Part shown: positions 8,323 through 53,700 of the stretch, piece by piece
Layout of the letters: each line of letters starts with the position of its first letter
Position numbering within the stretch: position 1 is the stretch's first letter
Made by a program: the position numbers and the translations under genes
Origin: Alviniconcha marisindica
Lineage: Eukaryota > Mollusca > Gastropoda > Provannidae
Length of the DNA stretch: 64,000 bases
Direction: 5' to 3'
Assembly (NCBI GenBank): GCA_018857735.1
Contig: JABMCL010001379.1
Span: 609,501 to 673,500 of the forward strand
The notes under the pieces: model-generated
Database searches by the model: none
Seen by the model: only the letters and a program-made list of their open reading frames with translations
Told to the model about the DNA's origin: nothing

Positions 8323-11300
8323 TCAAGAGTACATTTTCAGCCCAAAGCTGCGGTCGAAGCGAAGTGGCAGCGTGCTGGAGAGAGCGGAGACTTCCCAGTA
8401 TAGGCTGCGTGAGAGGAAGAGACGGTACAGGAACACCCCCGCCATGGACTGACAAACCAGCACGCCCATGGTGATTAACTGTAAAAACACAAACCAGCAT
8501 GCCCATGGTGATTAACTGAAAAAACACAAACCAGCATGCCCATGGTGATTAACTGTAAAAACACAAACCAGCATGCCCATGGTGATTAACTGAAAAAACA
8601 CAAACCAGCATGCCCATGGTGATTAACTGAAAAAACACAAACATTCACACCCATGGTGATTAACTGAAAAAACACAAACCAGCATGCCCATGATGATTAA
8701 CTGAAAAAAACACTACAATTGTGTGTAAACACAGACCAGCACACCCACAATGATTAACTGAAAAAGAGACCATCTCGTCATCATCAAACCTGATTGGGGT
8801 TGTTGTAACACTTCATTCATAATTATAACTGTCATATGATGCAATAATTAGAATTAAGTAATACTGATGAATATCCTGAATATCTCATCTGCAGATAAGC
8901 CCTAACCACTGAGGGAGCAGCAAGGTTTGAAGTCTGCTCATTTGTATGATGGTCAAAAATGGTTCCTTTTTCTCTGAAGTGCCACTAGGATGATGTGAGT
9001 GACTCACACAAAAGCGAAAGGACGAGGAGGGTGTAATTAATAAAAATCATAATTATATTTCATAACAATGCAAAAGACAACGAGCCATCTGTAAGTACTT
9101 GTCACAAACATTCCAGACAACTGATACGCTTATATTCATGTGCGTTCTATGGAGCTTGTAAATATTCGGGACAGCAGTTGATCTATTAACATAACATTTT
9201 GGATAGCAGATGACATACTTTTTATCATAAATATTCTGGATAGAAATGGATCGGTATGTTGTACAAATATACTGGACAGCGATGGACACACACACACACA
9301 CTCACACACTTTACATAATGAACCTTGTGGAGAACATTTGCTGTACTTACTTTATATCGTAAATATTCTGAGACAAGCCTGGTGATGATGACAAAGACTG
9401 GGTAACACAGGAACCACAGCATGCAGCACTGAAACACAGCACAACCCCACATCACAAAATGCTACCACTTGTGAAACACTGTGTAACAACTCTAAACAGC
9501 CCAAACATGCACACACATAACTGCACAGGTGTGGTGTCAACAACTGCTCAACTTCTGTGGCAATGTGCATTCTTATTCGTCTTCTGTTAATGACCATCGG
9601 CCACAAAACTGGCCATTACTGTCATTCTCAGTGCATGCTGGGTTAGTTTTGTTGTTTCCATAATCCATCGAACTCTGACATGGTCTGTAGGATCTTTAAC
9701 GTGCGTATGTGATCTTTTTGCATGCGTATATACACATGGCTGTAGCTGGCCATAGCTTTCGACTGTGGCAACGTCCATTAAAGTCAGTTTCTTTCATCAG
9801 CAGGACTCAAAGGTGTATTTCTGTTTCTCACAGACAATTATGTGTTTTGGCTCAGTCTCAGATATGGACAATTTGTCTCACATTATTTAGCGCTCTGTTT
9901 ATTATGTGTAGTAATAATAATAATGTACATTTACTGCGCGCTCATCAACACCCTGAGTGCTCACATAATACATATTAACCTAAATATATTGTATACACCT
10001 GTAGAGCAAAGTCCTATATAAACATATATATAGTTATTGTTTGTTTATATAAGCAATGTCTTTAGGGTAGAATGGGATACTTGGTGGCTCTAGTTTATTA
10101 AATAGGTAGGTAGTGTTGCTTAATGTCCTCAGATGTCAGTTGACATATTAGGGACAAGCTGAGACCAATGCCAAAGCATGGTTCAATATAGCTTTACGTC
10201 CACGGAAACCAGAAGGCTCGTTAGGACGGACAGCCCAGGACGGCCACCTCGACTCTCACACAGCTCCTGAACTATGTTTATTAAATTACATATAAAGAGG
10301 CTTTATACTAATTGTTTGTACAGCGCTGTGAGGTAAACTCGGGAAGGGGACAGCACTTCACAAGATCTATCTATTACAGTTATTATCATTACCATGAGGG
10401 TGCATCATCATAAGAGCAGCACAGCCCATTCCTTCCTGTCAATATCTACACAGCATTATGCAGGAGGGAAGGGCTATTAATTTTATTAGCATAATTTTCC
10501 TAATTTTTTACACATGATCAAGTAACCTCAGCATCACATTCCATTTATGTGGCAGTCCAGACTTTGACTTTGGGTGGACTTTCAACTGAGGCAAAAACAA
10601 TCAACACTGAAATTAGACTTAATTTTCCTGACCCTTAATTCAGTGTTAAACTGAACCTATTGGGCGATTCAGCGAGGTTGGTTTGCTCGAGTGAATGCGT
10701 TTTGTAATCTTTTGCGCAAGAAGTCGTGGGAGGTCGCAGCGCACTTCCAGGACGATTTCTGAGTAGGTGTTGCTTCAAGCTGTGTATAACAGTGGAAGTT
10801 GAACCTAGAATCACGAAGCAGTACAAATGCCAATACTGTTGCAGTTGCAAAAATTACTGTGGAAAGGGGATGAAGGGTGGAAAAAAAGTGTCTGTGAGTT
10901 GTTTTTTGGCTGACCAGAAGATCGTGAGTTCATAGAAAAAATGCGTTTTGGGGCACCTATAGCATGAGCAATAAGTTATTGCTTATTGCCAGATACATTA
11001 TGACTACGGGCCTCCAAAAATGCCTTTGAAGTTGGCAGTGTAAAATTCACAAATTCACTGTCACTGTCTTCCATTGTGAAGAAAGTATGCACCGGAAGTA
11101 AAAGCAGCCAAGGGATTTAAGCGATGCCGGGCAAAATTCAAGGGAGTTAACAACCCCGCCTGAATCGCCCAATAGAAAGTGATCAACAACAACCCTCAAC
11201 TGAAGCAAAATCAGTCAACCTTGAAATTAGATTTAATTTCCCTGACCCTTAATTCAGCCTTAAAGTGGATGGTCAACTGAAGCAACCTACCAGTTAAAGT

Positions 11301-50700: not shown

Positions 50701-53700
50701 ACCTACAAACACAGCAGCAAGTAGTGATAAGTGCAAAATGTGCCCCCACCCACCAGAATTCACCATCATCATACACTGCAGACCCACACTTCGCCTCATC
50801 ACCCCTCTGTTTCATACTGCCTTTAAGACCCACAGAAACACGCAGTTGTTCCGGCAGCTTGTGCCACTTGGGGGTCACAAGATGAGTGGACCGGCTTTGT
50901 CCTTTAAGGAGCTCAGCTCTGGTGCACACCAGTGAGTTAGCACTCTGACGTGCATTGGTGAATAGCAAGGCCAGCAGACCAGTGGGCAGGCAGCCACCCG
51001 TACAGCGAGACGCACCTTCAGGCCAGTCCCGCAGTCTGATCTCACAACACGTCAGGGGTGCTCCAACGCGGCCAAGGTTGAGGTCTGTGTCTGAAACCGT
51101 CAACATCACCCAGATCCTGATCAGCACACACAGACACACATGCACACACACACACATGTATACATATATATATATTTGTACATAACCCAGATCATCATCA
51201 GCACCCACACACCCACGCACATTTATATGAACATTTGTCAAGAGGCTCATCTCAACATCAACCCTAAGTGCTTCACAATGGCAACTATAGTGCTATTCTC
51301 TGCTTCCAAATGTAAGCATACCCAGATCATCATCAACATACGTATCACTGAAGGGGAAATAAATACAACTCACGTCTTACCTTCTGCTACAGTAGCAGTT
51401 CCATAGTCTTGTGTCAAAACAAAGCCCTGTAGAACAAGGCAGACACAACTCATATTCAAATATCTGCTACAGTAGCAGTTCCATAGGTCTTGTGTCAAAA
51501 GAAAGCCCTGTAGAACAGGGCAGACACAACTCAGTCTTACCTTCCACTACGGTAGCGGTTCCATAGGTCTTGTGTCAAAAGAAAGCCCTGTAGAACAGGG
51601 CAGACACAACTCACAGTCTTACCTTCCACTACGGTAGCGGTTCCATAGGTCTTGTGTCAAAAGAAAGCTCTGTAGAACAGGGCAGACACAACTCACAGTC
51701 TTACCTTCCACTACGGTAGCGGTTCCATAGGTCTTGTGTCAAAAGAAAGCCCTGTAGAACAGGGCAGACACAACTCACAGTCTTACCTTCCACTACGGTA
51801 GCGGTTCCATAGGTCTTGTGTCAAAAGAAAGCCCTGTAGAACAGGACAGACACAACTCACAGTCTTACCTTCCACTACGGTAGCGGTTCCATAGGTCTTG
51901 TGTCAAAACAAAGCCCTGTAAAACAGGGCAGACATAACCCACAGTTTTACCTTCTGGTTCGGTAGCGGTTCCATAGGTCTTGTGTCAAAACAAAGCCCTG
52001 TGAACAAGGCAGGAGAAACTGATGTGACACAGACTTACCTTCTGCTACAGTGCCAGCCCCGCAGGTCTCCGTCAGACCATAGCCTTGTAGAACAGGGCAG
52101 GAGAAACAGATGTGCATGAAGCGCTGTGTCGCCCCTGACAGTGGAGCGCCGCCAGACAACATGACGCGGATACGACCGCCGAGGGCCTGAGCCACCTTTT
52201 TGAAGATGATCCTGCAACACCGGCCAGGACCAAACAGCCACCATGAGCAAGTTGGACACTGACAACGGCCAGCCAAACATAATTAAAAAAATATACCGTA
52301 TCCTAATACACGAGAGAGCCGGTTTGGCCTAGCGGTAAGGCGTTAGGTTGGTAAGCAGAAGGACCTCGGTTCAAATCTGCTTCAGCTCTCCTTTCTCTTC
52401 AAAAGTTGTGGTCTGTGGACACTGTCTTGTGACTTTGTCCCTCACAATTAATGAAACATTATAATGGCTCTCATCACTGCCCATCTTAATGCAGAGGTCA
52501 TTCTGGTGCTGACAGTGTAGCGATAGGTATATAATCTCCCTCTCCCCCACCCTCCATACCCCCTTCCCCTCGTCCCTAATATGCCTCACAGTTTCTGTGG
52601 ACGTTAAGCACCATGTTTACTTACTTACTTACACACAGTCCCAGGCTTTTTGGCATGAATTAAAAATATAAAAAAAGCCAAAGTAATCTGGGAACTCAAT
52701 TTGAAAGCAGTATGCATCTCCTACTGACTTATGCATTTGCACCATTTCATAGAGAAAAAGGTTAGACCCCCCCCCCCCCCCCACCCTCTTTGAAATAAAT
52801 GCTGGATAAGTGAAAGGAAGAAAAGAGTAATAAGATTTTCACTTTTTCACTATGGTAAAAAAAAAAGAGAAAAAAAGTCAACATGAAAGTTTGCCTGCGA
52901 TGGTCTCTGTCACTCACTTGTTGAGAAAAGGCGTGTCAAAGCCCTCCTCTATCTGCGCCAGCTTGTACTTGTAGGCAAACTGGAACAGCACCTGTCCCCC
53001 AAGTCCCCCTGAGTTGACTTTGTCCCACACCCCTTTGTAAAGACGATCCATGATCACCTGGACGCACACAAACACTGTCATACATTAGAGAGGGTTAGTT
53101 CACGGGTGGTAGTGGTAGTGGTTAGGGAACTATTTTCTCTTGTGACATCAGCGATTTGTGTGCGGATCAGAGGTCACAGGTCAGAGGTTACGAGGATTGT
53201 TTACCGCACGGCTGAAGTTTTCGTCTACTTCTGTGTTCTTACCACAGTGGATTCGTGGGGACCATTTCCACTTTATTTTGCTACGTAAACATTAAACTTA
53301 TACTTTTCTTTGTAGATTAGCATCGTACGCTTGTATGAGACTGCTTGTATAATTTGGATTGCTTTTTTGTCGATTTTATTGCTGTTTCATGTGAAATCAA
53401 AATGGTGGACCATAGTGGTGCAACTGCCTGAAGTAACCAGCTGCCGATGAGTGCCTCTTAGAGTTGCCAGTTTTATGAGCATAACAACTACTTCACCAGT
53501 GATGCTGCAAAAGACTCATTTGTAAAGTTTGTCACTGGATGAACCTTCTCAACTTACTCTTCTGTGTGAAGGGGCAGGTGTTTAGGTACCGATCTGTGCA
53601 ACTTCAGCTACGTTACGCTTCAGGCACTCGCACAAACATAGGTAGACATTCGGGTTGCGCCACTACCACCACCACTACCACTACCACCTGAGTATTAACC

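Follow-up and report, generated by a model that had tools for sequence, protein, structure and literature searches.

Minisatellites straddling exon–intron edges in three adjacent genes of the gastropod Alviniconcha marisindica

The 64,000-nucleotide (nt) stretch of Alviniconcha marisindica DNA analyzed here (contig JABMCL010001379.1, positions 609,501 to 673,500; hereafter the window) carries GPR180, a C2H2 zinc-finger gene (ZNF) and the 3′ part of an ACSL3/4-like gene (Table 1), together with tandem arrays whose unit includes a splice site of the host gene. Gene models were derived from reading frame, phase and splice consensus, and were then checked. The GPR180 protein matched the Pfam families GPR180-TMEM145_TM (PF10192, 2e-47) and GP180_GOLD (PF21870, 6e-25) and aligned with Littorina saxatilis GPR180 at 86% identity and 92% query coverage. 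For ACSL, ten exons were joined first, and the eleventh, upstream one was located by tblastn; the encoded part contains an AMP-binding domain (Pfam, 1e-36) and is 79% identical to its counterpart in L. saxatilis and 80% to that in Babylonia areolata. A tblastn search of the window for the N-terminal half of ACSL gave no match with E < 0.1. The last exon of ZNF encodes zf-C2H2 domains (Pfam), and the join between its second and third exons keeps frame and phase and leaves a C2H2 finger intact.

Table 1. Host genes and edge-derived repeats in the window (bp, base pairs)
Feature	Position	Strand	Description
GPR180	8323..17155	−	9 exons, 454-amino-acid frame without internal stop
GPR180 exons e1–e9	16969-17155, 16625-16762, 15763-15984, 14226-14406, 13032-13081, 12554-12714, 11683-11874, 9351-9428, 8323-8478	−	
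ZNF, 3 exons in window	19937-20706, 21231-21355 (n3), 24504-26262	+	884-amino-acid frame
ACSL3/4-like gene, 3′ part	44778..58337	−	11 exons, frame open across all 11
ACSL exons, first six	58268-58337, 58008-58072, 57302-57366, 54395-54466, 52918-53057, 52039-52211 (E)	−	
ACSL exons, last five	51016-51090, 48727-48915 (G), 48121-48215 (H), 46084-46270, 44778-44929	−	
Array 1	8452..8770	−	37-bp unit, GPR180 e9 acceptor + 27 nt of exon, 7 extra copies
Array 2	13067..13548	−	GPR180 e5 acceptor + ~15-21 nt of exon, unit ~82 bp (157 higher-order)
Array 3	21356..23600	+	ZNF exon n3 donor + ~38 nt of exon, 13 copies
Array 4	47114..48167	−	ACSL exon H donor + 30 nt of exon, 47-bp unit, 21 extra copies
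Array 5	48856..50712	−	ACSL exon G acceptor + ~57 nt of exon, ~101-bp unit
Array 6	51365..52058	−	ACSL exon E donor + ~60-75 nt of exon, 82-bp unit
Two-copy 26-bp duplication	16747..16796	−	over GPR180 e2 acceptor, 6 edits of 32
Probable single diverged copy	9207..9238	−	GPR180 e8 donor, 6 edits of 32

A preliminary description of this DNA had placed six arrays at splice junctions of their own host genes, three genes on both strands. These edges proved to be true by frame and phase, and for GPR180 and ACSL also by the Pfam domains and by comparison with 12 orthologues (six of each, mostly from molluscs), which were colinear and gapless and had no added residues at the array-bearing joins. The orthologue alignment covers GPR180 and ACSL; at the ZNF join the support consists of frame, phase and the intact C2H2 finger.

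When 40 exon edges were searched with 32-nt probes (20 nt of exon plus 12 nt of intron, at most 9 edits allowed), copies were found locally at six edges in the three genes, on both strands, comprising three acceptors and three donors. In all six arrays, probes and alignments agree that the unit contains the gene's true splice site and some of the adjoining exon, with about 15–75 nt measured where 15–60 nt had been proposed. The array previously assigned to GPR180 exon 5 most likely corresponds to Array 2, as became clear from the 50-nt exon at 13032-13081; the repeat at 14478-15021, considered for that role and rejected, lies 71 nt from exon 4 and does not contain that exon. Array 2 has three extra copies with the splice site kept, and the copies of Array 3 are mostly spaced by 137–158 bp. 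Array 5, which occupies most of the intron between ACSL exons 51016 and 48915, is composed of three Tandem Repeats Finder blocks matching exon G (48856-49323, 49332-49543 and 49622-50666); the probe detected six acceptor copies (four of them close), and the farthest acceptor-bearing copy lies near 50703. For Array 6, the probe found six extra copies and alignment found eight.

The copies have diverged to different degrees. Out of 32 positions, the edits numbered 2–6 at H, 1–7 at e9, 2–4 at e5, 7–9 at E and 5–9 at ZNF, while at G they were 0–3 for the near copies and 8 for two far ones. The ages of the arrays therefore differ, implying separate events. Higher-order periods (94 = 2 × 47, 200 = about 2 × 101, and 290 = 2 × 145) point to exchange between copies. 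Two further copies were absent from the preliminary description: the duplication over the e2 acceptor, which may represent an array at its outset, and the probable e8 donor copy, which lies in the next intron, 132 bp from the true donor. Weak matches (8–9 edits) at the e4 and e6 donors, the ACSL E acceptor and the ZNF n2 acceptor were taken as background; in a shuffled-probe control, matches arose for 6 of 120 probes, including seven for a single shuffled G probe.

In the alignments, each unit is unbroken genomic sequence in which intron and exon are contiguous. None of the 20 exon–exon joins was found copied in the window: the best matches had 6–8 mismatches in 24, against 6–9 for shuffled joins, and the sole match with 4 mismatches (e6–e7) seems to reflect the exon 7 acceptor itself. 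Units continuous across the edge, with no exon–exon join copied, imply copying at the DNA level and speak against template switching with spliced RNA, which had been among the causes proposed.

Similar structures have been described elsewhere, contrary to the preliminary statement that the pattern had no name. In amphioxus, tandem repeats over exon–intron boundaries are called mirages and occur in Adh3 and in the globins BflGb6 and BflGb9 (PMC3087553), to which TnC and PGBD5 are added in PMC3902484. As in the snail, a tandem duplication covers the boundary and both acceptors and donors are affected; other shared features are unit lengths between 10 and about 160 bp, retention of AG or GT in many copies, and homogenized inner copies (PMC3087553, PMC3902484). 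Further traits ascribed to mirages are regular mRNA splicing that goes undisturbed and a length that is unstable between alleles or in somatic cells. A mirage also keeps the authentic edge and the exon structure, and this is what we found, as judged from orthologues for GPR180 and ACSL and from frame only for ZNF. The snail cases differ in belonging to a gastropod, in their density (six in 64 kb, in three adjacent genes) and in having up to 21 extra copies; they are known from the DNA of one haplotype.

We consider it probable that the snail arrays are mirage-type minisatellites produced when an exon edge was tandemly duplicated at the DNA level, that the outermost edge is the functional one, and that the arrays are passengers rather than a coding device. 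A short genomic tandem duplication would span the exon–intron edge; the copy joined to the exon body would stay a functional splice site, as follows from the gene structures, and the remaining copies would be tolerated, because they lie wholly within the intron, and would drift. These intron-side copies would expand and become homogenized by slippage or unequal exchange, as the higher-order periods and copy relationships suggest. Among the causes put forward earlier, this corresponds to the best-fitting one, a neutral ratchet in which a duplication survives because one intact edge remains. The earlier remark that each array starts exactly at the exon also holds, but it follows from geometry: the real edge is necessarily the outermost copy, so an array seems to start there.

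The breakpoints were probably fixed by short homologous stretches of exon and intron, most clearly at ACSL H. By eye, TGAG(C/T)AAG is common to the exon and the donor at H, ATGG(TT)GACTGG to the exon and the intron flank at GPR180 e5, and TGTGAC is shared at the e2 breakpoint; in E, G and ZNF, no comparable splice-like motif was seen where the units break. In Array 4, 20 of the 21 decoys have C at donor position +6, where the true donor has T, and 16 of 21 have G four bases on (both by eye). Exon H holds TGAGCAAGGT, with the same C and G as the decoys, exactly 48 nt before the true donor TGAGTAAGCT. Because the decoys match this exonic stretch, their donor looks like a recombinant derived from a first exchange between the true donor and the donor-like stretch of the exon.

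Minisatellites with a unit of at least 15 bp form 55 clusters (several with higher-order periods) and fill 31.6% of the window, so some overlap with exon edges is expected. Moreover, the pattern was singled out after reading the sequence. Pure chance, by which some units in a repeat-rich region simply fall over edges that are not special, thus has to be weighed; we judge it somewhat improbable, though far from negligible. Against it, 6 of 13 intronic arrays straddle an edge where 1.65 would be expected (P 0.0024; 1.58 and P 0.0019 in another run), an excess of about 3–4 fold that is nominal and post hoc. When all 16 listed arrays are taken together, 7 lie across an edge versus 1.64 expected (P 0.0003). 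In this placement test, array boundaries and the merging of families were decided manually, and units below 15 bp and two TG-rich arrays (11527-11610, 13924-13974) were left out; the versions with 13 and 14 arrays also left out units below 25 bp (15126-15175, 45293-45335). In a probe test on the same data, copies occurred at 6 of 42 edges and, within introns, at 18 of 400 positions (P 0.019), control positions within one array being non-independent. This test groups matches within 20 nt, which removes the e2 copy; with that copy included, P was 0.006, and with a limit of 7 edits the counts were 7/42 and 24/400 (P 0.019).

The preliminary description had held chance placement to be unlikely. 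The straddling excess agrees with this, but the arrays that begin near an exon without containing it, cited there as a further sign, are not in excess: 3 of 14 lie within 72 nt of an edge, a limit chosen after the gaps had been seen, versus 2.87 expected (P 0.57). Nor did the remaining arrays give any convincing match that would indicate an exon-derived origin; the matches were short or TG-rich (E 0.0008–0.04), and shuffled units gave 6 matches in 5 sets. In this comparison, the pieces of the arrays at 8452, 13067, 16747 and 48856 contain the true edge, making a match to their own edge uninformative.

The straddling excess suggests that exon edges are duplication hot spots, perhaps through microhomology of the splice consensus or through transcription or R-loop effects. 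We judge this explanation, like chance, somewhat improbable. The shared motifs at ACSL H, GPR180 e5 and e2 argue for it; it is weakened by the lack of comparable motifs at E, G and ZNF and by the sample, which is one window with 13 arrays. Furthermore, as regards the replication or R-loop trouble proposed earlier, GC skew (2-kb bins) does not follow the gene strand consistently: it is negative in both the ACSL and the ZNF array regions, whose genes lie on opposite strands. A bolder version, in which minisatellites of the snail lineage arise preferentially at exon edges, seeded by near-matches between splice consensus and exon (clearest in ACSL H), with strong true donors best tolerating decoys, seems doubtful to us. 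By U1 pairing, all three donors that carry arrays rank fifth or better among 19 (chance 0.01, post hoc); for acceptors, no such strength rule was found among the array-bearing edges.

The arrays could instead serve splicing, as reserve or alternative donors or acceptors. A precedent is the human IFI6 (6-16) minisatellite with multiple splice donors, cited in PMC4526556: there too, the repeat copies carry the donor of the host gene, but downstream copies are reported as used, alternative donors (PMC4526556). GT or AG is intact in 50 of the 57 decoys at the seven edges considered here (six arrays plus e2), which is compatible with such a role; the site is lost in five ZNF copies, one E copy and one H copy. 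Use of the intact decoys would add a multiple of three nt in 16 cases out of 50, but when each decoy was tested, none of the 50 left the frame both open and in register. The nearest e9 decoy causes a frame shift, and the shifted frame meets no stop within the annotated coding sequence. None of the seven consensus unit lengths is a multiple of three, although single spacings differ (the first ZNF spacing is 153). Routine productive use of the decoys is therefore unlikely, and with orthologues lacking extra residues and some sites destroyed, we regard a splicing role as quite improbable.

In terms of strength, 39 of 40 compared decoy donors were weaker than the true donor and one was equal. By U1 pairing, this held for 18 of the 19 scored copies in Array 4 (the other being equal; two copies were unscored) and for 13 of 13 in Array 3, four of them by only 0.1 kcal/mol. 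In Array 6, where copies were compared by eye from the alignment and one was also scored, all eight are weaker than the true GTAAGT (six GTAAGA, one GTAAAA and one destroyed). At e5, the decoy acceptors are equal to the true one or slightly lower.

Several observations fit poorly with the view of the arrays as tolerated passengers. Decoy acceptors at e9, G and e2 are as strong as the true ones or stronger: they score up to 14.7 versus 12.4 at e9, 9.7 and 10.4 versus 6.1 at G (8.9 versus 6.9 for the farthest copy with an enlarged matrix), and 9.5 versus 5.8 at e2 (10.1 versus 6.2 with the enlarged matrix). Acceptor strength thus does not account for the choice of the outermost acceptor by splicing. 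The weaker donors, in turn, are also expected from plain drift away from a strong site, and copies within one array are not independent in that comparison. Finally, survival of duplications would by itself predict no excess at edges over plain introns, yet an excess was seen (P 0.0024 and 0.019, nominal).

An assembly artefact is very improbable: one lancelet mirage was misassembled in a draft genome, but here the copies differ from one another in private variants and higher-order pattern, and the exons on both sides have intact frames.

Two other known processes bear comparison with mirage-type duplication. Human segmental duplications contain internal tandem repeats at exon–intron boundaries, with 27 intron modifications (PMC2812944); the likeness lies in minisatellite expansion at exon edges, and the difference is that those are recent paralogues with novel introns, whereas the snail exon structure matches that of orthologues. 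When introns are gained through tandem duplication of AGGT segments, the duplication likewise carries splice signals, but the snail has no new intron; existing introns lengthen. Our literature search (titles and the starts of abstracts, with most subscription papers outside reach) found no report of a mirage in a mollusc. A little-known structure, named only in lancelets in the literature found, is extended to a mollusc, with cases of differing age occurring together and copy numbers ranging from two to over 20. If mirages form throughout the lineage, introns would keep growing and gaining decoy splice sites; the snail arrays make it possible to test intron growth, the neglect of near-identical decoys by splicing, and edges as hot spots.

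Some minor features of the window deserve mention. The GPR180–ACSL neighbourhood is suggested to be conserved in Littorina. Just 3′ of the GPR180 stop, an open frame on the minus strand (7867-8319) contains MNHRTLLLVLAVVV, which is signal-peptide-like; another (30279-30611, minus strand) starts like a signal peptide and includes an EGF-like stretch rich in cysteines. Neither had a Pfam match at 0.001. About 75 nt upstream of the acceptor of ACSL exon Z, outside the tested loci, there is a 46-bp array (58412-58895) with no exon match. Lastly, positions 11064-11195 (minus strand) and 63180-63452 (plus strand) encode a nearly identical stretch, probably a dispersed repeat.

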